DNA of 64,000 bases from Ancylobacter defluvii (GTDB lineage Bacteria; Pseudomonadota; Alphaproteobacteria; Rhizobiales; Xanthobacteraceae), in assembly GCF_018390605.1 (NCBI RefSeq), contig NZ_JAHBGD010000004.1:1-64000 (forward strand). The letters run 5' to 3'. The translations under genes and the position numbers were made by a program. Shown one piece after another: positions 41,825 to 54,902 of the stretch. The notes below the pieces were generated by a model. The model had not been told where the DNA came from. It worked only from the letters and a program-made list of their open reading frames with translations, and made no database searches. Each line of letters starts with the position of its first letter. Within the stretch, counting starts at the first letter, position 1.

Positions 41825-41842
41825 GCGCGGGCGCCGCCAGCC

Positions 41843-41896
41843 ATGCCCCCGCCCACGGCCATGCCCCCGCCCACGGCCATGCCCCCGCCCACGGCC
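41843..41896. repeat. Three perfect 18-bp tandem repeats
   Basis: atgcccccgcccacggcc occurs at 41843-41860, 41861-41878 and 41879-41896, with a partial fourth unit. It lies in the 86-base gap between the convergent wspR and YbaK-type genes. The length is a multiple of three but no gene covers it. It could vary in copy number. Confidence 0.85.
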
Positions 41897-41910
41897 ATGC
41901 CTCGACGCCC

Positions 41911-42369: not shown

Positions 42370-42429
42370 GTCCCGCTTTGCTCCCAGCTTGCCGACGGCC
42401 GCGAACATGCCCGATTCGTCCATTGCGGC

Positions 42430-42565
42430 GCAGCATCGAATTACCCTTGCGTTGTTGAGCAAATTGAACATAACTAAACACAAAGCTAAACGCGGCCGGA
42501 CGCCACCGGCACGCAAATGCCAACCGAGGGGGCAAAAGACCCGCCTCGTTCTCTGGGAGGAGAGC
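42430..42565 (+). promoter_or_regulatory. AT-rich promoter region of the ABC-Dha operon
   Basis: A markedly AT-rich patch (about 42446-42490, with ttgttgagcaaattgaac and nearby aaac/aaag repeats) interrupts GC-rich DNA between the divergent YbaK and binding-protein genes. A strong ribosome site (GGGAGGAGAG) precedes 42566. No precise -35/-10 or operator is claimed. Confidence 0.4.
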
Positions 42566-43900
42566 ATGCTGAAGACGTGGAGGCCCCTTCTCGGGGCGGC
42601 GGTAGTCTGCGGGTCGCTCGGTGGAGCGCTCGCCGTGCCGCAGGCGGCGCAGGCCGAGCAGCTGACCCTGTGCTGGGCGGCATGGGATCCGGCCAATGCC
42701 TTGGTCGAGCTGTCGAAGGATTTCACCGCCAAGACCAAGATCGACATGAAGTTCGAGTTCGTCCCGTGGACGAGCTATGCCGACCGCTTCCTCAACGAGC
42801 TCAACTCGCAAGGCAAGCTGTGCGATCTGATCATCGGCGACAGCCAGTGGGTCGGCGGCTCGGCGGAGAACGGCCATTACGTCAAGCTGAACGACTTCTT
42901 CGCCAAGGAAGGCATCAAGATGGATGACTTCGTGCCGGCGACCGTCGTGGGCTATTCCGAATGGCCGAAGAACACGCCGAACTATTGGGCGCTGCCGGCG
43001 ATGGGCGACGTGGTCGGCTGGACCTACCGCAAGGACTGGTTCGAGAAGCCGGAGCTGCAGAAGGAATTCAAGGCCAAGTATGGCTGGGATCTCGCCGCGC
43101 CCAAGACCTATGACCAGCTCAAGCAGATCGCCGAATTCTTCCAGAAGCGGCAGATCGACGGCAAGACCGTCTATGGCGCCTCGATCTATACCGAGCGCGG
43201 CTCGGAAGGCATCACCATGGGCGTCACCAACGTCCTCTATGACTGGGGCTTCATGTATGAGAACCCCAAGAAGCCCTATGAGATGCAGGGCTATGTCAAT
43301 TCGCCGGACGCGGTGAAGGGGCTGGAATTCTACAAGTCGCTCTATGATTGCTGCACCCCGCCGGGCGCTTCCAACGTCTACATGGTGGAATCCGCCGATG
43401 CCTTCAAATCCGGCCAGGTGGCGATGCAGATGAACTTCGCCTTCACCTGGCCCGGCCTCTACAAGGACGAGAAGGTCGGCGGCAACCGCATCGGCTTCTT
43501 CCCCAATCCGGCGGAGAAGTACCATTTCGCCCAGCTTGGCGGGCAGGGCATCTCGGTGGTGTCCTATTCCGACAAGAAGGGCGCGGCGCTGCAATACATC
43601 AAGTGGTTCGCCCAGCCCGACGTGCAGGCCAAGTGGTGGCAGCTCGGCGGCTTTTCCTGCCTGAAGGCGGTGGTCGACGCCCCCGGCTTCAAGACCAGCC
43701 AGCCCTACGCGCCGGCCTTCCTGGAATCCATGGCGATCGTCAAGGATTTCTGGGCCGAGCCGAGCTATGCCGAACTGCTCCAGGCCATGCAGAAGCGGGT
43801 GCATGACTATGTCATCGCCGGCAAGGGCACGGCGAAGGAAGCCCTCGACGGCCTGGTGAAGGACTGGACCGAGGTGTTCAAGGACGACGGCAAGATCTGA
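42566..43900 (+). CDS. ABC transporter substrate-binding protein (carbohydrate/polyol, family 1)
   Basis: 444 residues. A signal peptide ends near QAAQAEQLTL. The mature protein begins LTLCWAAWDPANALVELSKD and has the family 1 binding-protein signature VPWTSYADRFLNELNSQGKL, followed by CDLIIGDSQWVGGSAENGHY. The Trp-rich body (YWALPAMGDVVGWTYRKDW) suggests a sugar or polyol ligand. Two permeases and two ATPases follow, then dihydroxyacetone kinases, so a triose or small polyol is the best guess. It is separated from permease 1 by 264 bases containing two hairpins, which may set its higher expression. Confidence 0.88.
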   Translation: MLKTWRPLLGAAVVCGSLGGALAVPQAAQAEQLTLCWAAWDPANALVELSKDFTAKTKIDMKFEFVPWTSYADRFLNELNSQGKLCDLIIGDSQWVGGSAENGHYVKLNDFFAKEGIKMDDFVPATVVGYSEWPKNTPNYWALPAMGDVVGWTYRKDWFEKPELQKEFKAKYGWDLAAPKTYDQLKQIAEFFQKRQIDGKTVYGASIYTERGSEGITMGVTNVLYDWGFMYENPKKPYEMQGYVNSPDAVKGLEFYKSLYDCCTPPGASNVYMVESADAFKSGQVAMQMNFAFTWPGLYKDEKVGGNRIGFFPNPAEKYHFAQLGGQGISVVSYSDKKGAALQYIKWFAQPDVQAKWWQLGGFSCLKAVVDAPGFKTSQPYAPAFLESMAIVKDFWAEPSYAELLQAMQKRVHDYVIAGKGTAKEALDGLVKDWTEVFKDDGKI

Positions 43901-43990
43901 CGGCGGATGGCGGGGAGGGGGCGTGCTCTCCCCTTCCCCGCCGGAGAGAGATCTTCGACCAATCCGTCCCGAACGCCTCCTTGTTCTTCC

Positions 43991-44099
43991 CTCCCCACGT
44001 TGGGGAGAGGTGGCCCGCGCAGCGGGTAGGTGAGGGGGTACGCGATGGCGAAGCCTGAGAAGACCCCTCACCCCAGCCCTCTCCCCCACGGGGAGAGGG
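43991..44099. repeat. Extragenic palindromes between binding protein and permease genes
   Basis: Hairpin 1: ctcccca (43991-43997), cgt, tggggag (44001-44007). Hairpin 2: ccctctcccc (44077-44086), cac, ggggagaggg (44090-44099), ten perfect pairs. Between them gtgagggggta and acccctcac can pair over distance. Elements of this CCCTCTCCCC type are widespread between genes in Hyphomicrobiales. Here they probably stabilise the binding-protein mRNA. Confidence 0.75.
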
Positions 44100-44164
44100 A
44101 GCTGCCGGGCCGCATTCGGTCCTCCGCTCCGGCCCAACCCGCTCATCCATTCAGGTGAGAGACC

Positions 44165-45133
44165 GTGACCGCTTCACACGACACCTTCTCCGAAAAGATG
44201 GCTGATGCCGCCATCCGGGCCACGCCCGAGCCGCTCGCCGTGCGGGTGCGCGGCCTGTCGGACCGCGCCATCGCCTGGCTGTTCATCGCCCCGACCATCG
44301 TGCTGCTGCTGGCGATCAACATCTTCCCGCTGTTCTGGGCGATCTACCTGTCCTTCACCAATTTCCGCGCCAACCGGCCGAACGCGGTGGTGCAGAATGT
44401 CGGGCTCGGCAATTACTCGCGCATCCTCAACGATCCCGACATCTGGGCGTCGATGCAGACCACGGCGCATTTCGTGTTCTGGACCATCGTGCTGCAGACG
44501 CTGATCGGCTTCGCGCTCGCCTATCTCATCGACCGCAAGTTCCGCGGCCACGCCTTCTGGACCACACTCATCCTCATTCCGATGATGCTGTCGCCGGCGG
44601 TGGTGGGCAATTTCTGGCGCTTCCTCTACGAGCCGCAGATCGGGCTGTTCGCCTATGCCGTCTCCTTCGTGTCGGGCATCCCGACCTCCGACATCCAGAT
44701 GCTCGGCAACGTCCATCTCGCGCCCTGGGCGATCATCATCGTCGATACCTGGATGTGGACGCCCTATGTGATGCTGATCTGCCTCGCCGGGCTGCGCTCG
44801 ATTCCCGACTACATCTATGAGGCGGCCGAGGTCGACCGCGCCTCGCCCTGGCGGCAGTTCTGGTCGATCACCGTGCCGATGGCGCTGCCCTTCATCATGC
44901 TGGCGGTGCTGTTCCGCGGCATCGAGAACTTCAAGATGTTCGACATGGTGAACCTGCTCACCGGCGGCGGGCCCGGCTCGACCACCGAGGTCGCGTCCAT
45001 CGCGCTGAAGCGCGACGCCTTCGAAGCCTGGGCCACCGGGCGCTCCTCGGCCTTCGCCATCGTGCTGTTCGTCGCGGTGTTCGGCCTCGCCAACATCTAT
45101 GTGAAGGCGCTCAACAAGGTGAAGCAGAGATGA
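44165..45133 (+). CDS. ABC transporter permease 1 (MalF/UgpA-like)
   Basis: 322 residues from GTG 44165. Six membrane segments; the first is LFIAPTIVLLLAINIFPLFW. The EAA loop near the end reads YIYEAAEVDRASPWRQFWSI, TVPMALPFIMLA, the E-A-A-x-x-D-x-A-x-x-x-x-x-F motif that contacts the ATPases. The C-terminal region NLLTGGGPGSTTEVASIAL is a family constant. Overlaps permease 2 by four bases. Confidence 0.92.
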   Translation: MTASHDTFSEKMADAAIRATPEPLAVRVRGLSDRAIAWLFIAPTIVLLLAINIFPLFWAIYLSFTNFRANRPNAVVQNVGLGNYSRILNDPDIWASMQTTAHFVFWTIVLQTLIGFALAYLIDRKFRGHAFWTTLILIPMMLSPAVVGNFWRFLYEPQIGLFAYAVSFVSGIPTSDIQMLGNVHLAPWAIIIVDTWMWTPYVMLICLAGLRSIPDYIYEAAEVDRASPWRQFWSITVPMALPFIMLAVLFRGIENFKMFDMVNLLTGGGPGSTTEVASIALKRDAFEAWATGRSSAFAIVLFVAVFGLANIYVKALNKVKQR

Positions 45134-46107
45134 GCTCCGCCAAATCCGCTGCCACGGCAACCGCCAGCTCCGCCCATTCCGTCGTCGAGCCCAGCCCGAC
45201 CTCGAAGCGCGTCGCCGGCGCCATCGTCATCCTCTATGCGCTGATCACCCTGGTGCCGCTGGTGTGGATCTTCCTCACCAGCATCAAGTCGCCGCCGGAT
45301 TCGATCTCCTACCCGCCGAAGATCCTGTTCACGCCGTCGCTGGAAGGCTACTGCAACCTGTTCACCACCCGCACGCGGCAGACGCCGGACTACATCGCCG
45401 CGCTGCCGCCGCCGTCCGGCGTGTGCGACGCGGTGACCCGCGAGCGCAACATGGTGATCGCCGGCGCGTCCAACTTCCTGCCGCGCTTCGCCAATTCGCT
45501 GATCATCGCCTTCGGCTCGACCTTCCTCGCCGTGTCGCTCGGCACGCTGGCGGCCTATGGCTTCTCGCGCTTCAAGGTGCCGCTGGCCGACGACCTTTTG
45601 TTCTTCATCCTGTCGACGCGGATGATGCCGCCGATCGCCGTCGCCATCCCGATCTACCTGATGTACCGGCAGCTCGGCCTGTCCGACACCGCGCTGGGCA
45701 TGATGCTGCTCTACACGGCGGTCAACGTCTCGCTCGCGGTCTGGCTGCTCAAGGGCTTCATCGACGAGATCCCGCGCGAATATGAGGAGGCGGCGATGAT
45801 CGACGGCTACACCCGGTTGCAGGCCTTCTTCAAGGTGGTGCTGCCGCAGGCCACCACCGGCATCGCCGCCACCGCCATCTTCTGCCTGATCTTCGCCTGG
45901 AACGAATACGCCTTCGCCTCGCTGCTCACCTCGGGCAGCGCCCAGACCGCGCCGCCCTTCATCCCCACCATCATCGGCGAGGGTGGGCAGGACTGGCCGG
46001 CAGTGGCGGCGGGCACCACCATCTTCCTGGTGCCGATCCTGGTCTTCACCATCCTGCTGCGCAAGCAGCTCTTGCGCGGCATCACCTTCGGGGCGGTGCG
46101 CAAATGA
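45130..46107 (+). CDS. ABC transporter permease 2 (MalG/UgpE-like)
   Basis: 325 residues. TM1 is AIVILYALITLVPLVWIFLT; a periplasmic insertion of about 60 residues (PDYIAALPPPSGVCDAVTRE) is longer than usual. FANSLIIAFGSTFLAVSLGT, FFILSTRMMPPIAVAIPIYL and the EAA loop IPREYEEAAMIDGYTRLQAF are typical. The stop overlaps the small membrane protein gene. Confidence 0.92.
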   Translation: MSSAKSAATATASSAHSVVEPSPTSKRVAGAIVILYALITLVPLVWIFLTSIKSPPDSISYPPKILFTPSLEGYCNLFTTRTRQTPDYIAALPPPSGVCDAVTRERNMVIAGASNFLPRFANSLIIAFGSTFLAVSLGTLAAYGFSRFKVPLADDLLFFILSTRMMPPIAVAIPIYLMYRQLGLSDTALGMMLLYTAVNVSLAVWLLKGFIDEIPREYEEAAMIDGYTRLQAFFKVVLPQATTGIAATAIFCLIFAWNEYAFASLLTSGSAQTAPPFIPTIIGEGGQDWPAVAAGTTIFLVPILVFTILLRKQLLRGITFGAVRK

Positions 46108-46310
46108 CCGACCACACGCTCACCCACAAGAAACCCCGCCGCCCGGTCTTCCTGCGCCGCGGCCCGATGGAGGCGTTGGCGGTTGCCATCATCGCGCTCG
46201 GCTTCCTGATGCTGTTCCAGCCCTTCGTGCTGGTGCTCTACACCTATTCCTTCATCACGCTTCTCGCCGGCACGGTGATGTTCACCATCGTGTCGAAGTT
46301 CCCGGAGTAG
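46104..46310 (+). CDS. Small membrane protein in the ABC operon (68 aa)
   Basis: A basic N-terminus (THKKPRRPVFLRRGPMEAL) precedes two hydrophobic segments, AVAIIALGFLMLFQPFVLVL and SFITLLAGTVMFTIVS. Four-base overlap with permease 2 and a 4-base gap to the first ATPase fix it in the operon. Glycerol ABC operons of rhizobia also carry a small membrane protein of unknown role near the permeases; this one is shorter than those I recall. Function unknown. Confidence 0.75.
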   Translation: MTDHTLTHKKPRRPVFLRRGPMEALAVAIIALGFLMLFQPFVLVLYTYSFITLLAGTVMFTIVSKFPE

Positions 46311-46314
46311 GCTC

Positions 46315-47457
46315 ATGGCCGAGATCAGGGTCGATCACCTCCGCAAGGCCTTCGGCGATTTCGTCGCGGTGCAGGATTCCTCCTTCACCGTCGAGGATGG
46401 CGAGTTCCTCGCCCTGCTCGGTCCGTCGGGCTGCGGCAAGACCACCACGTTGCGGATGATCGCCGGGCTGGAGCTGCCCACCGGCGGCGGCATCCATCTC
46501 GGCGGCGACGACGTCACCTACAAGCGCGCCAGCGAGCGCGACATCGCCTTCGTGTTCCAGCTGTTCGCGCTCTACCCGCATATGAACGTGCGCAAGAACA
46601 TCGGCTTCCCCTTGCTCTCGCAAGGTGTGCCGAAGGCGGAGATCAAGCGGCGCGTCGAAGAGACGGCGAAACTGCTCCAGATCGACCACATCCTCGACAA
46701 GTCGGTCTCCGGCCTCGCCGGCGGCGACCGCCAGCGGGTGGCGCTGGGCCGCGCCATCGTGCGGCGGCCGAAATGCTTCCTGATGGACGAGCCGCTCGGC
46801 ACGCTTGACGCCGAATTCCGCGACGTGATGGTCCGCGAGCTGCGCGAACTGCACAACCGCATCCACGCCACCACCGTCTACGTCACCCACGACCAGATCG
46901 AGGCGATGGCGATGGCCGACAAGATCGCGGTGATGAACCACGGCATCATCGAGCAGTTCGCCACCCCGCGCGAGATCTACAACCGCCCGGCCTCGATGTA
47001 TGTCGCCGACTTCATCGGCTCGCCGCCGATGAACTTCCTGCGCTTTTCCGCCGGCCTGCCGAAGGGCGCCCGCATCGCCCGCATCGACGGGGCCGATGTG
47101 CAGATGCCGGAGCTGCGCGCCGATGTCGCCCCCGGCGAGCTGGCGCTCGGCGTGCGCCCCGAGCACATCCGCTTCTCGGATGCCTCGCCTTTGCGCGGGG
47201 CGATCTATGGCGCCGAATATCTCGGCACCAACCAGATCGTCACGGTGGAGACGGCGGGCGGCCTCGTCCGCGCCCGGCTTCCCGCCGAGCGCAGCTACCG
47301 CATCGGCGACCGGGTCGGCCTCAGCTTCGTCGCCGACCGGCTGTCGCTGTTCGATTGCCGCAGCGGCCGCGCCATCCCGTCGACGCTGCACGAGGGCACG
47401 CTCGCCCGCGATACCCGCCACCGCGAGGTGCGAGATCTGGAGGTCGGCCATGGCTGA
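46315..47457 (+). CDS. ABC transporter ATP-binding protein 1
   Basis: 380 residues. Walker A: LALLGPSGCGKTTTLRMIAG; Q-loop FVFQLFALYPHMNV; a variant signature SVSGLAGGDRQRVALGRAI (L-A-G-G-D instead of L-S-G-G-Q/E); Walker B CFLMDEPLGTLDAEFRDVMV, with E of D-E-P; H-loop TTVYVTHDQIEAMAMADKIA. A TOBE/OB domain follows from ~residue 240. With ATPase 2 it probably forms a heterodimer, as in the GlpS/GlpT glycerol transporters. The last 8 bases overlap the next gene. Confidence 0.93.
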   Translation: MAEIRVDHLRKAFGDFVAVQDSSFTVEDGEFLALLGPSGCGKTTTLRMIAGLELPTGGGIHLGGDDVTYKRASERDIAFVFQLFALYPHMNVRKNIGFPLLSQGVPKAEIKRRVEETAKLLQIDHILDKSVSGLAGGDRQRVALGRAIVRRPKCFLMDEPLGTLDAEFRDVMVRELRELHNRIHATTVYVTHDQIEAMAMADKIAVMNHGIIEQFATPREIYNRPASMYVADFIGSPPMNFLRFSAGLPKGARIARIDGADVQMPELRADVAPGELALGVRPEHIRFSDASPLRGAIYGAEYLGTNQIVTVETAGGLVRARLPAERSYRIGDRVGLSFVADRLSLFDCRSGRAIPSTLHEGTLARDTRHREVRDLEVGHG

Positions 47458-48481
47458 TGTCGCGCTGAAAGGCGTCACCCGGAGCTTCGGCGACAAGCGT
47501 GCGGTCGACGGCCTCGACCTCCACATCGCCGATGGCGAATTCGTCGTGCTGCTCGGCCCCACCGGCGCCGGCAAGACCACGACGCTGCGGCTGATCGCCG
47601 GGCTGGAGAAGCCGGATGCCGGCACGGTGGAGATCGGCGGCCGGCCGATGAACGGCGAATCCGCCGCCGGGCGCGACGTCGCCTTCGTGTTCCAGCAATA
47701 TTCGCTCTACCCGCATCTCACCGTCTACGAGAACCTCGCCTTCCCGCTGCGCTCGCCGGCGCGGCGGATGGACAAGGCCAGCCTCGACGCCCGCGTGCGG
47801 CAGGTGGCGAAGATGGTGCGCATCGACCACAAGCTGGAGAACCGCTCCACCCGGCTCTCCGGCGGCGAGATGCAGCGCGTCGCCATCGGCCGGGCGCTGG
47901 TCCGCCGGCCGTCCATCTATCTGATGGACGAGCCGCTCTCCTCGCTCGACGCCAAGCTGCGCGGCGAGCTCAGGCTTGAGCTCAAGCGCATCCAGAAGGA
48001 GCTCGGGGCGACGCTGCTCTACGTCACCCACGACCAGATCGAGGCGATGACCATGGCTGACCGCATCGGCATCCTCGCCGAGGGCAGGCTGGTGCAGATC
48101 GGCACGCCGCGGGAGATCTATGCCAACCCCGCCAACCTCCACGTCGCCGCCCGGCTCGGCCAGCCGCACATCAACCTGATGCCGGCCGACCTGCTGCCCG
48201 GCGTCGCGGCGCCGGCCGGCACCCGCACCATCGGCGCGCGCACCGAGCATCTGGAGATCAGTCGCGCCCGCCAGGGCAGCGCTGGCCTCGGTCCCGACGG
48301 CAATGCCGAGGTCGATTGGATCGAGCATCTCGGCGACCAGAACCACCTGCACATCAAGGTCGGCGGCCACAAGCTGGTGACGCTCGCCGATCCCGACCTG
48401 CCGGTCGAGGCCGGCGACCGGATCAGCGTGCGATTGAAGCAGCCGCTCTATTTCGGTGGCGACGGGCAGCGGCTCGCGTGA
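47450..48481 (+). CDS. ABC transporter ATP-binding protein 2
   Basis: 343 residues from ATG 47450. Walker A: VVLLGPTGAGKTTTLRLIAG; signature TRLSGGEMQRVAIGRALVRR, which is canonical; Walker B IYLMDEPLSSLDAKLRGELR; H-loop LLYVTHDQIEAMTMADRIGI. The C-terminal TOBE domain is present. The D-loop differs from ATPase 1 (SSLDAKL versus GTLDAEF), supporting an asymmetric pair. Confidence 0.93.
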   Translation: MADVALKGVTRSFGDKRAVDGLDLHIADGEFVVLLGPTGAGKTTTLRLIAGLEKPDAGTVEIGGRPMNGESAAGRDVAFVFQQYSLYPHLTVYENLAFPLRSPARRMDKASLDARVRQVAKMVRIDHKLENRSTRLSGGEMQRVAIGRALVRRPSIYLMDEPLSSLDAKLRGELRLELKRIQKELGATLLYVTHDQIEAMTMADRIGILAEGRLVQIGTPREIYANPANLHVAARLGQPHINLMPADLLPGVAAPAGTRTIGARTEHLEISRARQGSAGLGPDGNAEVDWIEHLGDQNHLHIKVGGHKLVTLADPDLPVEAGDRISVRLKQPLYFGGDGQRLA

Positions 48482-48637
48482 CATGAAGGGGGAGGCGCCG
48501 CGCGTCGCCGCGTCGCCTCCAAGCGTCGGCCAGGGCCTTTCTCCGATCGGGTGGACTCACTTGATCGGAAAGAAAATGCTCTGGATTCAAGAGTTTGAGC
48601 TAGATCTGGACGGATCGGGCTCGGGGATCGGAAGGCA
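48482..48637. other. Gap with hairpin between ABC and Dha genes
   Basis: ggaggcg (48491-48497) and cgcctcc (48514-48520) can pair; no T-run follows. The segment around 48560-48610 resembles a short extragenic repeat common in this group. It could attenuate readthrough from the transporter into the kinase genes. Confidence 0.3.
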
Positions 48638-50287
48638 ATGACGAAACATTTCTTCAACCGCCGCGAGGCCATCGTCACCGAGGCGCTGGACGGGCTGCTG
48701 CGCACCACTCCGCCCGGCCGGCTGGCGCGGCTGGACAGCTATCCCGACATCAAGGTCGTCATCCGTGCCGATTGGGACAGGCGACGTGTGGCGGTGGTCT
48801 CGGGCGGCGGTGCCGGCCATGAGCCCTCGCATGCCGGTTTCGTCGGCCGCGGCATGCTGACCGCCGCGGTGTCGGGCGAGATCTTCGCCTCGCCGAGCGT
48901 CGAGGCGGTGCTCACCGCCATCCGCGCCGTTACCGGCGAGCCGGGCTGCCTGCTCATCGTGAAGAACTACACCGGCGACCGGCTGAATTTCGGCCTCGCC
49001 GCCGAGCGCGCCCGCGCCGAGGGCTTCAAGGTGGAGATGGTGATCGTCGCCGATGACATCGCCCTGCCGGATCTTCCGCAGCCGCGCGGCATCGCCGGCA
49101 CGCTGTTCGTTCACAAGATCGCCGGCCATCACGCCGAGGCAGGCGAGGACCTCGCCGGCGTGGCGGCGGCGGCGAAGGCGGCGGCGCACGACATCGCCTC
49201 GCTCGGCGTGTCGCTGTCCTCCTGCTCGATTCCCGGCCAACCTTTCACCGAGCGGCTCGGCGAGAATGAGGGCGAACTTGGCCTCGGCATTCATGGCGAG
49301 CCGGGCGTGGAGCGCATCGCGGTGCAGCCGGCCGATGCCCTCGTCGCGCTGATGGAGCAGCACCTGGCGCCGAAGTTGGCGCCGAAGCTGGCGGCGGATG
49401 CCGCCTATGCGCTGATCATCAACAATCTCGGCGCGGTGCCACCGCTGGAGATGAGCCTGATCGCCGACAGCGTGCTCCGCTCCCCGCTGGGCGCCAATGT
49501 GAAGCTGGTCATCGGTCCGGCGGCGCTGATGACGGCGTTGAACATGAACGGCTTCTCGCTGTCCTTCCTCAAGCTCGACGCCTCGCGCGAAGCCGCCCTC
49601 ACATCGGCCGTCGAGCCGCTGGCCTGGCGCCCGGCGATTGCCGCCAGCCCGGTCGCCGTGGTGCCGGCTCCCGCCGCGCCGCATGCGGCGGCGCCGCCGT
49701 CCAGCGCCGACCCGACTGCCGAGGCGGTGATCCGCACCGCCTGCACCACCCTTATCGGGCTGGAGCCCGAGCTGAACCGTCTCGACGCCAAGGCGGGCGA
49801 CGGCGACACCGGCTCCACCGTCGCCACCGGCGCCCGCGCCGTCGAAGGCAAGCTCGCGAGCCTGCCGCTGGCCGACACCGCCGCGACGCTCGCAGCCATC
49901 GGCGAGACGCTGGCCACCGCCATGGGCGGGTCGAGCGGCGTGCTGCTCTCCATCTTCTTCACCGCGACCGCCAAGGCGACCGCCGAAGGCAGGGACCTGC
50001 CCGCGGCGCTGCTCGCCGGCCTCGACCGCATGACCTTCTATGGCGGCGCCACCCCCGGCGCGCGCACCATGGTCGATGCGCTCGATCCCGGCCTGAAGGC
50101 GCTGGCGGCGAGCGGCATTGCCGATGCGGCGGCGGCGGCCGGCGCCGGCGCCGAGGCCACCAAGGCGATGATCCATGCCCGCGCCGGTCGCGCCGCCTAT
50201 GTCGCGGCGCGCGATCTCGAAGGGTCGCCAGATCCCGGCGCGGTGGCGGTCGCTGCGGTATTCGCGGCACTGGCGACGCGGGGATAG
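48638..50287 (+). CDS. Dihydroxyacetone kinase, DhaK-DhaL fusion (ATP-type)
   Basis: 549 residues. DhaK domain (1-~330): VVSGGGAGHEPSHAGFVGRG with the His of the substrate site, IVKNYTGDRLNFGLAAERAR with the catalytic Asp, and GELGLGIHGEPGVERI with the His that binds the ketone covalently. After an Ala/Pro linker comes a DhaL domain with LDAKAGDGDTGSTVATGARA (the Asp cluster that holds Mg-nucleotide) and ETLATAMGGSSGVLLSIFFT. A fused K-L protein is the ATP-dependent form, unlike the split PTS form encoded just downstream. Product: dihydroxyacetone phosphate or a related sugar phosphate. Confidence 0.92.
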   Translation: MTKHFFNRREAIVTEALDGLLRTTPPGRLARLDSYPDIKVVIRADWDRRRVAVVSGGGAGHEPSHAGFVGRGMLTAAVSGEIFASPSVEAVLTAIRAVTGEPGCLLIVKNYTGDRLNFGLAAERARAEGFKVEMVIVADDIALPDLPQPRGIAGTLFVHKIAGHHAEAGEDLAGVAAAAKAAAHDIASLGVSLSSCSIPGQPFTERLGENEGELGLGIHGEPGVERIAVQPADALVALMEQHLAPKLAPKLAADAAYALIINNLGAVPPLEMSLIADSVLRSPLGANVKLVIGPAALMTALNMNGFSLSFLKLDASREAALTSAVEPLAWRPAIAASPVAVVPAPAAPHAAAPPSSADPTAEAVIRTACTTLIGLEPELNRLDAKAGDGDTGSTVATGARAVEGKLASLPLADTAATLAAIGETLATAMGGSSGVLLSIFFTATAKATAEGRDLPAALLAGLDRMTFYGGATPGARTMVDALDPGLKALAASGIADAAAAAGAGAEATKAMIHARAGRAAYVAARDLEGSPDPGAVAVAAVFAALATRG

Positions 50288-50316
50288 CCGGGTCGAACCG
50301 GGCAAGGGAGGAGCCG

Positions 50317-50931
50317 ATGCATCTCGACGCCACCGACCTTGCCGCGCTGATCGGGCTGTGCCGGGCGGAGATCGACCGGCATGGCGAGCATCTGAGCGCG
50401 CTCGACAGCGCCATCGGCGACGGCGATCACGGCGCCAATATGCGGCGCGGCCTGGAAGCGGTGTTCGCCGAGCGCGACGCCATCGCCGCGCTGCCGCTGC
50501 CGGCGGCGCTGGAGCGGATCGGCCTGGTGCTGGTGATGAACATTGGCGGCGCCGCCGGGCCGCTTTACGGCACGCTGCTGATGGAGCTGGGGCGCGGCCT
50601 CGGCATCGCCGACACGCCGGAGGCGTTCGCCGCGACGCTGGAACATGCCATCGCCGCGGTGGCGCGGCGCGGCCGCTCCGGGCCCGGCGACAAGACGCTG
50701 CTCGACGTACTTTACCCCGTGCAGGCCGAGGTGGTAAGGCGCTCGGCGCCCGGGCGCATCGCCGCCTGCGCCCGCTCGGCGGCCCATTCCACCGAGGCGA
50801 TGCAGGCGCGGCGCGGCCGGGCGTCGTTTCTCGGGCCGCGCTCCATCGGCCACGAGGATCCCGGCGCCTCCAGCTGCGCCCTGCTCACCGCCGCCATCTG
50901 CGGCTATTTCGAGGAGCACCGCCCGTCATGA
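50317..50931 (+). CDS. dhaL: Dihydroxyacetone kinase subunit DhaL
   Basis: 204 residues. LDSAIGDGDHGANMRRGLEA carries the D-x-x-x-G-D-x-D-x-G metal-ADP site; LVMNIGGAAGPLYGTLLMEL and RGRSGPGDKTLLDVLYPVQA follow the family. This is the ADP-binding subunit rephosphorylated by DhaM in PTS-type kinases. Overlaps dhaM by four bases. Confidence 0.93.
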   Translation: MHLDATDLAALIGLCRAEIDRHGEHLSALDSAIGDGDHGANMRRGLEAVFAERDAIAALPLPAALERIGLVLVMNIGGAAGPLYGTLLMELGRGLGIADTPEAFAATLEHAIAAVARRGRSGPGDKTLLDVLYPVQAEVVRRSAPGRIAACARSAAHSTEAMQARRGRASFLGPRSIGHEDPGASSCALLTAAICGYFEEHRPS

Positions 50932-51350
50932 ACGCGCGTGCCGCCCAGCCCGCCTCTCCCTCCTCGGCGAATGTCGGCATCGTCATCGTGTCGCACTCGC
51001 CGCTGGTGGCGAAAGGCGCTGCCGACATGGTGCGCCAGATGGTCGGCGACTGCGTGCCGCTGGCCTGGACCGGCGGCAACGCCGAGGGCGGGCTCGGCAC
51101 CCATGTCGCCGGTATCGCCGCGGCGATCGAGGCGGCGTGGTCGGAGGCGGGGGTGGCGGTGTTCGTCGATCTCGGCGGCGCCGAGACCAATAGCGAGATG
51201 GCGGTCGAGCGGCTGGATCCGGCGCGGGCGGCCCGCGTCGCCATCTGCAATGCACCGCTGGTCGAGGGGGCGGTGGTGGCCGCCGCCGAGGCATCGGGCG
51301 GCTCCAGCCTCGCCAAGGTGGTGGCCACCGCCGAGGAGCTCGCCCCCTGA
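50928..51350 (+). CDS. dhaM: DhaM, PTS-dependent phosphotransferase subunit (EIIA-like domain only)
   Basis: 140 residues. VGIVIVSHSPLVAKGAADMV has the phospho-His of the EIIA-mannose-like fold (I-V-S-H-S). VAVFVDLGGAETNSEMAVER and CNAPLVEGAVVAAAEASGG complete it. In E. coli DhaM is one long chain with HPr and EI-like parts; here HPr and EI are separate downstream genes, each overlapping or nearly so. Confidence 0.92.
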   Translation: MNARAAQPASPSSANVGIVIVSHSPLVAKGAADMVRQMVGDCVPLAWTGGNAEGGLGTHVAGIAAAIEAAWSEAGVAVFVDLGGAETNSEMAVERLDPARAARVAICNAPLVEGAVVAAAEASGGSSLAKVVATAEELAP

Positions 51351-51700
51351 TGAGCGAGTTCAGTCCCGCCTTCCCGCGCGAGCGCAGCGGCACTCGCTGG
51401 CAGACCGAGGTGGAGGTCACCCACGGCATCGGCCTGCATGCGCGGCCCTCGGTCGCCTTCACCCGCCTCGCCAAGAGCTTTCCCTGCGCCATCGAGGTGG
51501 CGGTGGACGGCTCGGCCGACTGGCTGAACGGCAAGAGCATCGTCAAGATCATGGGAGCCCGCATCCGCCGCGGCACCCGCCTGCGCATCCGCGCCGAGGG
51601 GGCCCGCGCCGAGGAGGCGATCGTCGCGCTCGGCGAGCTGGTGCGGCGCAATTTCGATGAGGACCGCAAACATGGCCGCCCCGATGGCCGGCCCGCGTGA
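51350..51700 (+). CDS. HPr-type phosphocarrier protein
   Basis: 116 residues, longer than normal HPr (85-90) by an N-terminal extension and a basic tail. Phospho-His in VTHGIGLHARPSVAFTRLAK; regulatory-site region NGKSIVKIMGARIRRGTRLR lacks the Ser46 context of Gram-positive HPr but keeps K-S. Starts on the last base of the dhaM stop and its end overlaps the EI gene by 29 bases. It most likely serves DhaM. Confidence 0.9.
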   Translation: MSEFSPAFPRERSGTRWQTEVEVTHGIGLHARPSVAFTRLAKSFPCAIEVAVDGSADWLNGKSIVKIMGARIRRGTRLRIRAEGARAEEAIVALGELVRRNFDEDRKHGRPDGRPA

Positions 51701-53435
51701 GCTGCGCGGCAAGCCGGCGTCGCCCGGCCGGGCGCTCGGGCCGGCGTTCCGCGCCCCGGCCGCAGCGGCGCCGTCGCTTCCCGCCGGCGGGGATGCCCGC
51801 GCGGCGCTCGCCGCCGCCGTGACGCTGGCGATCGAGGAATTGCGGGTGCTCGCCGCCGGGGCGGATGCGCAGAGCGCCGGCGTGCTCGATTTCCAGATCG
51901 AGATGCTGCTCGATGAGGACATGCTGGAGCCGGCGCTGCGGCGCATCGCCAGGGGGGAGGGCGCGGCGCTGGCCTGGGCCGGCGCCATGGACGCTCATAT
52001 CGCGACATTGGTCGCGGATTCCGAGGCCCACGACAAAGACGCCTTTGCCGAAAGTGTTGAGGAGTGCAGCGCCGGCGAAGACGCCTTCGCCGAAAATGTT
52101 GAGGAGCGCGCCGCCGGCGAAGACGCCTTCGCCGAAAATGTTGAGGAGCGCGCCGCCGGCGAAGACGCCTTCGCCGAAAATGTTGAGGAGCGCGGCTCCG
52201 GCGAAGACGCCTTCGCCGCGCGGGCCTCCGATCTCGCGGACCTCAAGCAGCGCGTGCTCGACGCGCTCGCCGGCCGGGCGCGAGCGGATTTTCCGGAAGC
52301 CGCCATCTATGTCGGCCAGGACATGCCGCCGAGCCTGTTCCTCGCCCATGACTGGTCGAAGGGCGGCGGCATCGCGCTGGCGGCCGGCAGCACGGTCAGC
52401 CATGTCGCCATGCTCGCTCGCGCCCGCGGGGTGCCGATGGTGATCGGCCTCGGGCCGCTGGCCATACCAAGCGGCCAGCCGCTGCTGGTCGATGGCAGCG
52501 AGGGGCTGGTGCGCCTCGATCCCGGCGAGCCGGTCGCGGAGGTTCTCATCCCGCCCGCCATCCCCGCCGCTGCGTCTGTCCCGCCCCGCGCGGAACCGGC
52601 AGTTGATGCTTTCCGGCTCAGCGTCAATCTCAACAGCCTCACCGATCTCGATGCCGTCGATCCCGCCGCGGTGGACGGCGTCGGGCTGGTGCGCAGCGAG
52701 TTCCTGTTCCTCTCGCCGGCGGAAGCGCTGAGCGAGGAGCGGCATGTCGCCTGCTATCGCCGCATCGTCACGCGCTTCGCCGGTCGCCCGGTCACTCTGC
52801 GCCTGCTCGATCTCGGCGGCGACAAGGCGTTGCCCGGCCTGATCGAGGGCGGCCCGGCCTCGCTGCTCGGCGAGCGCGGCATCCGCTTCCTGCTGGCGCA
52901 TCCCGAGCTTGCCCGCATCCAGGCGCGGGCGATCCTGCGCGTCGCCGCGCTCGGCCCGGTCAGCGTGCTGCTGCCGATGGTGACGCTGCCGGCGGAGGTG
53001 ACGGCGATGGCGAAGCTGTTCGACGAGGAGGCGGCGCGCCTTGCCCGGCTCGGCGTGCCGGTCCGCCGCCCGCCGCTCGGCATCATGGTGGAGGTGCCGG
53101 CGGCCGCCCTGACGCTCGACCTGTTCGCCGAGGCGGCGTTCTTTTCGGTGGGGACCAACGACCTGATGCAGTATCTGTCGGCGGCGGCGCGCGACAATCC
53201 CGCCGTCGCCCCGCTCAACACCGGCTCGGAGACCGCCTTGTTCCGCCTGTTGGCCCAGATCAGCACCGCCGCCCATGCGCTCGGCAAGCCGGTGTCGGTC
53301 TGCGGCGATCTTGCCGGCGATCCCGAAGCGGTGGCGCGGCTCATGGCGCTCGGCTTTCGCGATTTCTCGGTGGCGCCCTCGCGGCTGCCCGCTTTGCGCG
53401 CGTTGCTGCGCCGGCCCGCCATGGCGGAGGGCTGA
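51672..53435 (+). CDS. PTS enzyme I (phosphoenolpyruvate-protein phosphotransferase) with internal tandem repeat
   Basis: 587 residues from ATG 51672. The swivel domain has phospho-His in LAAGSTVSHVAMLARARGVP. The PEP barrel has DGVGLVRSEFLFLS, VTLRLLDLGGDKALPGLIEG, GERGIRFLLAHPELARIQAR, LGIMVEVPAAALTLDLFAEA, FFSVGTNDLMQYLSAAARDN and the active Cys in VSVCGDLAGDPEAV. Between the N-terminal helical part and the swivel domain lies a block of [EK]DAFAE[NS]VEE[RC]xxG repeats (residues ~122-182). It is in the HPr-binding region, so partner contact may be altered. An upstream ATG (51657) is also in frame. It feeds HPr and DhaM from PEP. Confidence 0.93.
   Translation: MAAPMAGPRELRGKPASPGRALGPAFRAPAAAAPSLPAGGDARAALAAAVTLAIEELRVLAAGADAQSAGVLDFQIEMLLDEDMLEPALRRIARGEGAALAWAGAMDAHIATLVADSEAHDKDAFAESVEECSAGEDAFAENVEERAAGEDAFAENVEERAAGEDAFAENVEERGSGEDAFAARASDLADLKQRVLDALAGRARADFPEAAIYVGQDMPPSLFLAHDWSKGGGIALAAGSTVSHVAMLARARGVPMVIGLGPLAIPSGQPLLVDGSEGLVRLDPGEPVAEVLIPPAIPAAASVPPRAEPAVDAFRLSVNLNSLTDLDAVDPAAVDGVGLVRSEFLFLSPAEALSEERHVACYRRIVTRFAGRPVTLRLLDLGGDKALPGLIEGGPASLLGERGIRFLLAHPELARIQARAILRVAALGPVSVLLPMVTLPAEVTAMAKLFDEEAARLARLGVPVRRPPLGIMVEVPAAALTLDLFAEAAFFSVGTNDLMQYLSAAARDNPAVAPLNTGSETALFRLLAQISTAAHALGKPVSVCGDLAGDPEAVARLMALGFRDFSVAPSRLPALRALLRRPAMAEG
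52035..52217 (+). repeat. 42-bp tandem repeats inside the enzyme I gene
   Basis: Units at 52035-52076, 52077-52118, 52119-52160 and 52161-52202, plus a 15-base partial. Units 2 and 3 are identical, unit 4 differs at the end, unit 1 is the most diverged. Each unit encodes 14 residues. Each junction carries ggcgaag-acgc-cttcgcc, a self-complementary stretch that may promote slippage. Confidence 0.9.
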
Positions 53436-53438
53436 GCG

Positions 53439-53846
53439 TTGGCGCGGGAGACCGACGAGGCGGTGATCGCCTACAAGACCATTCTCGCCGGTCTGCTCGA
53501 CAACCGGCCCTCCGGCACCCGCCAGCGGCTGGCGAGCGCGCTCGGCAAGCACCGCAGCTTCGTCACCCAGGTGACCAGCCCGACCTATGACACGCCGCTG
53601 CCGGCGCGGCATCTGCCGACGATCTTCCGCGTCTGCCATTTCAGCCCGGCCGAGCAGGAACGCTTCCTTTCCGCCTATGAGGCGGCGCATCCCGGCAAGC
53701 TGCCGGATGTCGGCGGCGGCGACAAGCTGCGCGCCTTGACGCTGATGGCGCCGGATTTCGCCGACGAGAAGAAGAACCGCCAGTTCGACGACGCCGTCGC
53801 CGAGTTCGTGCAGAAGATGGCGGCGCTGGTGAATGGCGGTGAGTGA
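53439..53846 (+). CDS. Small putative HTH regulator in the Dha operon
   Basis: 135 residues from TTG 53439, 3 bases after the EI stop. SGTRQRLASALGKHRSFVTQ looks like a two-helix HTH (R-Q-R-L-A-x-A-L-G-K-H-R-S-F-V-T-Q). It is followed by PLPARHLPTIFRVCHFSPAE and RFLSAYEAAHPGKLPDVGGG. I infer a small DNA-binding protein for the module; I do not know its family name. The start codon is weak, but no other fits. Confidence 0.6.
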   Translation: MARETDEAVIAYKTILAGLLDNRPSGTRQRLASALGKHRSFVTQVTSPTYDTPLPARHLPTIFRVCHFSPAEQERFLSAYEAAHPGKLPDVGGGDKLRALTLMAPDFADEKKNRQFDDAVAEFVQKMAALVNGGE

Positions 53847-53900
53847 GCGCCCCTGCCATAGCGGCGGCCGCCGCCGGATTCCGCACCGGAGCGCCGGGCG

Positions 53901-54902
53901 ATGAAGAAGATCATGAACGCCCCGGAGCGTTTCGTCGCCGAGAGCCTTGAGGGGCTGGTGCGCGCGCATGAGGATCTCGTCGTCTTCGGCGGCGAGCGCA
54001 AATTCATCCGCCGGCGCCATCTCGCGCCCGGCAAGGTGGCGGTGATCTCCGGTGGCGGCGCCGGCCACGAGCCGCTGCATTCCGGCTTTGTCGGGCACGG
54101 CATGCTGGATGCCGCCTGCACCGGCCATGTCTTCACCTCGCCGACCCCGGACCAGATCGTCGCGGCGATGGACGAGACCGATACCGGCGCCGGCTGCCTG
54201 CTCATCGTCAAGAATTACGACGGCGACGTGATGAATTTCGAGATGGCGGCGGAGATGGCCGCCTCCCGCCACGCCATCGAGACGGTGATCGTGGAGGACG
54301 ACGCCGCCACCGGCCCGGCGGTGCGCAGCCGGGGCCGGCGCGGCGTCGCCGGCACCATCGTGGTGGAAAAGCTGCTGGGCGCCGCCGCCGAGCGCGGTGC
54401 CGAGCTCGGCGCGCTGAAAGAGCTCGGCGAGGGCCTCAATGCCCGCATCCGCTCGATGGGCGTCGCGCTGCGCGGCGTGGCGATGCCGAACAATCCGCGC
54501 GAGACCTTTGACCTCGGGCCGGAGGAAATGGAGATCGGCGTCGGCATCCATGGCGAGCCCGGCCTCACCCGCACCGGCTTTGCCGATGCCGATGCGATCA
54601 TCCGCCGGCTCGGCGAGGCGATCCTCGCCGAACTTCCCCCCGAGTTGCTTGGCGACCCGGACCTGCGGCCGCTGCTGCTCGTCAACGGCTTCGGCGGCAC
54701 CCCGCCGATCGAGCTCTATCTCGCCTATGGCCTTGCCCGCCGCTTCTTCGAGGCGCACGGCATCGTGCCGGTCCGCTCGCTTACCGGCACCTTTGTCACC
54801 TCGCTCGACATGGCCGGCCTGTCGCTGACGCTCGCGCTGCTTACCCCGGATCAGCTGGCGCTCTGGGGGGCGCCGGTGGCGACGCCGGCGCTGAGCTGGT
54901 GA
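53901..54902 (+). CDS. dhaK: Dihydroxyacetone kinase subunit DhaK
   Basis: 333 residues. VISGGGAGHEPLHSGFVGHG (substrate-site His), LIVKNYDGDVMNFEMAAEMA (catalytic Asp in N-Y-x-G-D), and EMEIGVGIHGEPGLTRTGFA (covalent His). Unlike the fusion at 48638, it lacks a DhaL domain, so it pairs with DhaL at 50317 and DhaM. Its C-terminal 52 bases overlap, tail to tail, the quinone reductase gene on the other strand. Confidence 0.94.
   Translation: MKKIMNAPERFVAESLEGLVRAHEDLVVFGGERKFIRRRHLAPGKVAVISGGGAGHEPLHSGFVGHGMLDAACTGHVFTSPTPDQIVAAMDETDTGAGCLLIVKNYDGDVMNFEMAAEMAASRHAIETVIVEDDAATGPAVRSRGRRGVAGTIVVEKLLGAAAERGAELGALKELGEGLNARIRSMGVALRGVAMPNNPRETFDLGPEEMEIGVGIHGEPGLTRTGFADADAIIRRLGEAILAELPPELLGDPDLRPLLLVNGFGGTPPIELYLAYGLARRFFEAHGIVPVRSLTGTFVTSLDMAGLSLTLALLTPDQLALWGAPVATPALSW

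Follow-up and report, generated by a model that had tools for sequence, protein, structure and literature searches.

The window analyzed here, which is the whole stretch of 64,000 nucleotides taken from Ancylobacter defluvii (RefSeq assembly GCF_018390605.1, contig NZ_JAHBGD010000004.1, positions 1 to 64,000), contains between 42566 and 54902 a block of 13 plus-strand genes, ordered from a solute-binding protein (SBP) to DhaK, in which an ATP-binding cassette (ABC) importer is followed by two different types of dihydroxyacetone (DHA) kinase. A preliminary description of this DNA reported two kinase types with a dedicated enzyme I (EI) and HPr of the phosphotransferase system (PTS) beside an ABC importer, and all of these parts are found where it placed them. 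Two further parts are recognized here, a 68-amino-acid open reading frame (ORF; 46104–46310) and a 135-amino-acid protein (53439–53846). Several gene pairs within the block overlap or nearly touch, the widest intergenic gaps being 264 bases 3' of the SBP gene and 156 bases 5' of the gene for a fused kinase, and the block would be transcribed as a single unit.

The importer has the composition of a CUT1 sugar importer, comprising the SBP (42566–43900; SBP_bac_1/SBP_bac_8 by Pfam and by its orthologs), permease A (44165–45133; BPD_transp_1 by Pfam, CUT1 type), permease B (45130–46107; BPD_transp_1 by Pfam), and two different MalK-type ATPases with ABC_tran and TOBE domains (ATPase 1, 46315–47457; ATPase 2, 47453–48481), which would be paired in one importer. 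The signature motif reads LAGGD in ATPase 1 and LSGGE in ATPase 2; amongst the copies compared (some genomes are counted twice, and two paralogous loci are included), the former ends in D in 118 of 128, the remaining 10 giving no pattern match, and the latter ends in E or Q in all 125. The D-loop of ATPase 1 in the window carries G. A dead site in ATPase 1 was considered and rejected, since its nucleotide motifs are intact apart from the altered signature and the D variant is widespread, leaving only an asymmetry between the two ATPases. The 68-amino-acid ORF, which has hydrophobic stretches (by eye) and no Pfam match, is conserved with the importer, keeping its place between permease B and ATPase 1 in all uncut orthologous loci that were read, and is possibly an accessory importer subunit.

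The first kinase (48638–50287) is a fusion of DhaK and DhaL in one chain of 549 amino acids (Pfam domains Dak1 at residues 36–325 and Dak2 at 386–546), and its closest relative in the PDB is the ATP-dependent DHA kinase of Citrobacter freundii (1UN8/1UN9; E about 1e-150, residues 1–546). The second is made up of separate DhaL (50317–50931) and DhaK (53901–54902) proteins, whose best PDB matches are the PTS-dependent subunits of Escherichia coli, together with DhaM (50928–51350; an EIIA-man domain alone), HPr (51350–51700), and EI (51657–53435; without a GAF domain, its start overlapping HPr). DhaL and DhaM both score above the cut-offs of their NCBIfam families (180.6 versus 138.3 bits for TIGR02365 and 128.4 versus 98.25 bits for TIGR02364, respectively). 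Active-site motifs are intact in both kinases and in the relay: both DhaK parts contain HGEPG, which we take to be the substrate histidine motif, and the L domains contain what is presumably their aspartate motif, as GDGDTG in the fusion versus GDGDHG in the separate DhaL. The motifs GIHGE[PAS]G and GDGDTG are kept in all 102 fusion copies longer than 500 amino acids, a count in which at least four genomes appear twice. GDGDTG and GDGDHG largely separate the ATP-dependent from the PTS-dependent types, a guide that agrees with the PDB matches of both kinases, and the fusion is predicted to use ATP as its donor.

The motifs VSHS in DhaM, GLHARP in HPr, and TVSHVA in EI presumably hold the phosphorylatable histidines of the relay. 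Because the genome encodes only one EI besides this one (on contig C4, carrying a GAF domain) and a single further protein of the HPr family (on contig C17), the EI and HPr of the operon represent a second set; as the C4 and C17 proteins look like components of the regulatory PTSNtr, the chain driven by phosphoenolpyruvate (PEP) would be self-contained. The idea that the operon HPr is without the regulatory serine was dropped, since an alignment with the C17 protein shows a serine there. The EI gene also holds a 42-bp in-frame coding tandem repeat (52036–52218; 4.4 copies, 95% match) that sits between the N-terminal and histidine domains and expands the protein; amongst 16 loci looked at, the only others that repeat such units, in different numbers, belong to two further Ancylobacter genomes. 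The 135-amino-acid protein has no Pfam match, and its best named matches are from Ancylobacter. Its structural model (mean pLDDT, i.e., predicted local distance difference test, 79.4) gives the lambda repressor 3KZ3 as the best Foldseek hit, which is weak (E 0.27), and no match at E <= 0.001. Since the model is possibly lambda-repressor-like and the protein travels with the PTS set, it is a candidate HTH-like regulator that probably acts on the PTS part.

The distribution of kinases beside orthologous importers, judged with 13 query proteins, shows that the two types interchange. When the class is sampled evenly, an orthologous SBP (a match at E <= 1e-120) is present in 30 of 387 genomes, and the corresponding loci carry both kinases (4 loci), the fusion only (10), the PTS set only (12), or a split pair consisting of DhaK and DhaL without DhaM, HPr, EI, or the 135-amino-acid protein (4). 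In one of the loci with both kinases (L129), the fusion is placed after DhaK. Three loci (L128, L133, and L142) end soon after the kinase, and their genomes are covered by a genome-wide search for DhaM (E <= 1e-6), which was run on 29 of the 30 genomes and recovers this protein, once each and at the importer locus, in the 15 that carry the PTS set and in no others. In a sample of the phylum, the SBP is matched at E <= 1e-100 in 32 of 397 genomes, in one case by nothing closer than a paralog (44% identical); 7 of the 31 orthologous loci had already been read, and the 24 further ones comprise 10 with both kinases, 9 with the fusion only, 3 with the PTS set only, 1 with a split pair (L187, from another class), and 1 that is cut after the fusion (L170). 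Across the class and phylum samples, a DHA kinase adjoins the orthologous importer in 54 of 54 loci, and the same is true of all 11 uncut orthologous loci outside the genus in a separate set of relatives from the same order (two of which are shared with the samples; a twelfth, L147, is cut 857 bases past the SBP and enters none of the kinase counts). Paralogous importers, by comparison, show no kinase in view in any of 11 cases (SBP identity 40–45%; two are truncated directly behind the SBP, and a third is visible for 5.9 kb), and the importer at L112 is likewise without one, giving 0 of 10 informative paralogous loci.

Split pairs with a PTS-like DhaL (GDGDH) stand beside the orthologous importer at L143, L144, L145, L133, and L187; the DhaM search, which covered all of their genomes except that of L187, found none in these four, and three of the split-pair genomes are 1.4 Mb in size. 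Possible fusions elsewhere in two PTS-only genomes (G429, once; G439, twice) were rejected because each spanning match holds an internal stop codon, and the frames of the one match that was checked give only a match of DhaK length; these are probably neighboring DhaK and DhaL genes.

The presence of both kinases in one operon is itself widespread. Amongst 225 relatives, the best 80 were retained as named loci by likeness to the 135-amino-acid protein, a choice that makes them uninformative about loci without this protein. Completeness was scored on the 12 genes from permease A onwards, the SBP being left out as it is often cut by the flank. All 12 genes are present in 68 of the 80 loci under a strict filter; of the remainder, 7 are without HPr only through the overlap filter, 3 are cut by a contig end, and 2, both from Phyllobacterium, are without EI. 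The co-occurrence of the two halves in relatives, on which the preliminary description had made its proposal depend, was thereby checked and is present, and the conservation of gene order across the named loci not cut by a contig end excludes a chance grouping. Ancylobacter and Rhizobiaceae commonly carry the double set. Within 30 genomes of the genus, including that of the window, the SBP is 92–100% identical in 20 and 72–73% identical in 3, and 7 have no ortholog; both kinases are present in 7 of 7 loci read from the group of 20 (the window, L097, L148–L151, and L193), and the three loci with 72–73% identity (L098, L099, and L107) are PTS-only. Named and sampled loci partly repeat each other (L004/L150, L007/L148, L010/L151, L069/L106, L013/L193, L065/L171, and L074/L172).

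The explanation that we consider likely, as read from these sequences, is a DHA scavenging operon in which the importer brings in DHA and either of the two kinases phosphorylates it. Under this scheme, the CUT1-type importer with its two different ATPases would take up DHA, and DHA phosphate would be made either by the ATP-dependent fusion or by the PEP-driven chain from EI through HPr, DhaM, and DhaL(ADP) to DhaK; the product would go directly into central metabolism with no further dedicated enzyme, and the 135-amino-acid protein would probably regulate the PTS part. In the fusion-only form the kinase is the only enzyme matching the queries, so that it would, most simply, act on the cargo of the importer, and since the kinases interchange beside one importer, both kinases of the window would serve one shared substrate, presumably DHA. 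DHA kinases have been stated to phosphorylate only DHA and D-glyceraldehyde (PMC3863723, cited here, like all sources below, from the available portions of its text). If this is true, a cargo can be named for an uncharacterized importer found in 30 of 387 sampled class genomes, scavenging of free DHA pays off even at low concentrations, and the loci form a natural series (ATP only, PEP only, both, and split) for asking why PEP or ATP pays for the same step.

Several observations weigh against this explanation. The solved SBP relatives with a named ligand bind maltose, trehalose, or sulfoquinovosyl glycerol, all larger than DHA; the best solved relative, Lin1841, names no ligand; and the structure prediction for the SBP is of low quality (mean pLDDT 42.6; 23 rows, 20 of them partial). 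The fusion and the separate DhaK fall below the cut-offs of families that are nevertheless their best ones (535.8 versus 574.95 bits for the NCBIfam equivalog TIGR02361 and 383.3 versus 406.25 bits for TIGR02363, respectively). Distant importers also lie near DhaK and DhaL genes, both at L113 (SBP 31% identical) and on contig C19 of the window genome. The Phyllobacterium operons L037 (P. endophyticum) and L077 (P. trifolii) keep HPr, DhaM, DhaL, and DhaK and have no EI between HPr and the 135-amino-acid gene, so the dedicated EI is dispensable in these two; each genome encodes two EI-like proteins elsewhere (with open frames 658–660 and 772–778 amino acids long), and the operon of P. zundukense keeps its EI. 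Kinases of the DHA kinase family with other substrates, e.g., tetruloses, are known. The split pairs combine a PTS-like DhaL with no DhaM in the four genomes searched, which means that the DhaL motif is not a full test of the donor. Such pairs may simply be ATP-dependent, and perhaps draw their phosphate from ATP, because the ATP-dependent DHA kinase family has been described as DhaK plus DhaL (PMC3863723).

The history of the importer bears on whether the doubling of kinases has a function of its own. A quick tree built from five importer proteins of 77 loci, in which some long branches meet, requires 3 changes for the both-kinase state, 1 for the fusion-only state, 5 for the PTS-only state, and 3 for the split state; the presence of the fusion requires 3 changes and that of the PTS set 4 (the contig-cut L170 and L111, L112, and L113 are left out of these counts). 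A single clade of all fusion-bearing loci is rejected on this quick tree (approximately unbiased (AU) test, p 5e-49). A tree of the fused kinase was not used for rooting, its outgroup being one partial and very long row. Six loci from one genus of the order (L173–L178) are 68–87% identical to the window in the importer and fusion and 64–75% in the small ORF, and only 38–73% identical in the PTS-side genes; even so, a tree places their PTS set as sister to the one in the window group. The doubling could be transitional, with one kinase on its way to replacing the other and no function in having both, an idea that is compatible with DHA as cargo, and the both-kinase locus L138 adjoins the fusion-only clade, which is where a replacement by way of doubling would put it. 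Against this, the main both-kinase group keeps both kinases in the uncut named loci, and ratios of nonsynonymous to synonymous substitution (dN/dS) are low in two pairs (the window versus Ancylobacter Lp-2, and Rhizobium leguminosarum 3841 versus Rhizobium CCGE 510), at 0.16–0.21 for the fusion and 0.17–0.23 for DhaK, which argues that the doubling is not decay; values are higher in the window/Lp-2 pair for EI (0.33) and the 135-amino-acid gene (0.34). A mere replacement stage appears rather improbable to us.

The retention of both kinases in uncut named Ancylobacter and Rhizobiaceae loci, together with these low ratios, would not be predicted by full redundancy, and can be taken in favor of two substrates, with a broad importer and with the fusion and the PTS kinase each acting on its own small ketose or aldose (DHA, D-glyceraldehyde, or erythrulose). 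The preliminary description had likewise entertained a second substrate such as a longer polyol. A second substrate such as a tetritol is not supported, as no dehydrogenase, isomerase, or aldolase gene lies between 42566 and 54902 and no enzyme for longer sugars is encoded there; dehydrogenase and isomerase genes beside the kinase would mark a tetritol/tetrulose locus. Moreover, orthologous importers occur with either kinase alone (the fusion in 10 and the PTS set in 12 of the 30 sampled class genomes), and contig C19 carries DhaK and DhaL at another locus, amid genes of sugar type that include a member of the inositol-monophosphatase family. We regard two substrates as unlikely. Besides DhaK, DhaL, and the inositol-monophosphatase-family gene (recognized by Pfam), the C19 locus (L096, 224000–243900) holds further sugar genes that were judged by eye from their translations, among them a ribose-type ABC importer and a CUT1 importer. 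Least probable of the alternatives is an importer for another compound (glycerol or a glycerol/DHA conjugate) that enzymes encoded elsewhere turn into DHA, for which the larger ligands of the solved SBP relatives and an importer with two ATPases that reportedly serves for glycerol in R. leguminosarum could be cited, and against which stand a glycerol kinase above its family cut-off on contig C21 and the fusion-only loci, where the kinase is the only match to the 13 queries besides the importer.

With DHA scavenging as the preferred explanation, the keeping of both kinases argues that the doubling has some use, and a choice between PEP and ATP as donor, which the preliminary description had also raised, would be the most natural and a plausible reason for it. 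A more specific version can be offered only tentatively, namely that this would be a dedicated high-affinity DHA importer with a kinase module that is interchangeable between PEP and ATP, that the window operon would switch donors according to the PEP/ATP state of the cell and under the influence of the 135-amino-acid protein, and that split pairs without DhaM would use a non-PTS donor, perhaps ATP.

The operon is flanked by minus-strand ORFs on both sides, with an aminoacyl-tRNA-editing domain upstream (its longest frame, whose true start may differ, overlaps the SBP start) and a flavodoxin fold downstream (its end overlaps that of DhaK). Scans for promoter-like and terminator-like sequences are no richer than shuffled sequences (0 versus a mean of 0.8, and 5 versus a mean of 4.5, respectively), and since no inverted repeat was found in 42380–42570, no operator is proposed. 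An 18-bp tandem repeat (41840–41901; 3.4 copies, 100% match) lies directly after a GGDEF response regulator ORF.

Amongst characterized systems, the PTS set resembles E. coli DhaKLM (PDB 1UOE and 2BTD) in having DhaK, DhaL, and an EIIA-type DhaM. In E. coli, DhaM is a single chain that unites EIIA, HPr, and a portion resembling EI, and the NCBIfam model PRK11377 matches DhaM, HPr, and EI of the window as separate parts. The C. freundii kinase (1UN8, 1UN9) is a fused DhaK-DhaL like the window fusion over its full length, and it is not known to stand beside an ABC importer or a PTS set. In Haloferax volcanii, dhaKLM encodes a PEP-dependent DHA kinase comparable to the window PTS set, and strains without it grow less well on DHA; in that organism it is glycerol kinase that serves as the second enzyme phosphorylating DHA, unlike the fusion of the window (PMC3863723).

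The closest parallels are rhizobial, and the designation of the locus as an undescribed pathway in the preliminary description was too strong, given that print sources already describe a rhizobial DHA PTS (PMC3665714, with reference to Barabote and Saier 2005; PMC2405797) and a PTS-only operon of Bradyrhizobium diazoefficiens (PMC5017801). The latter, blr3566–blr3577, is annotated as SBP, two permeases, small ORF, two ATPases, DhaL, EIIA, HPr, EI, hypothetical protein, and DhaK, which is the order of the window operon minus the fusion; orthology is judged by order and annotation only, and the available text of PMC5017801 does not list a fused ATP-type kinase. These 12 genes rise together 4.2- to 24.3-fold in a blr7984 mutant, which supports co-regulation of the PTS-only form, and the block is lower in bacteroids, with no inducer named in the available text (PMC5017801). 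As in the window, the DHA kinase clusters of Mesorhizobium loti and Bradyrhizobium japonicum have their own HPr and EI (PMC2405797), and RL2903, the second HPr candidate of R. leguminosarum 3841, is described as belonging to a DHA PTS (PMC3665714); an importer and a fused kinase are not mentioned for any of these in the available portions of the two papers. R. leguminosarum 3841 carries the same operon as the window (L034), whose HPr would be RL2903 (labelled RL2903 in the results and RL2904 in the strain table of PMC3665714). Deletion of this HPr leaves colony form and uptake of α-aminoisobutyrate (AIB) as in the wild type, and by contrast an npr deletion alters both (PMC3665714). In the literature searched, which had most subscription journals outside its reach, neither an ABC importer for DHA nor the double set, its spread, or the kinase interchange was found. 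Both kinase types and the rhizobial DHA PTS with its own HPr and EI were thus already known, and annotations from Bradyrhizobium had placed an importer next to the PTS set; new here are the double set with its spread and the interchange of kinases beside an orthologous importer, with no kinase beside any of the 10 informative paralogous ones.

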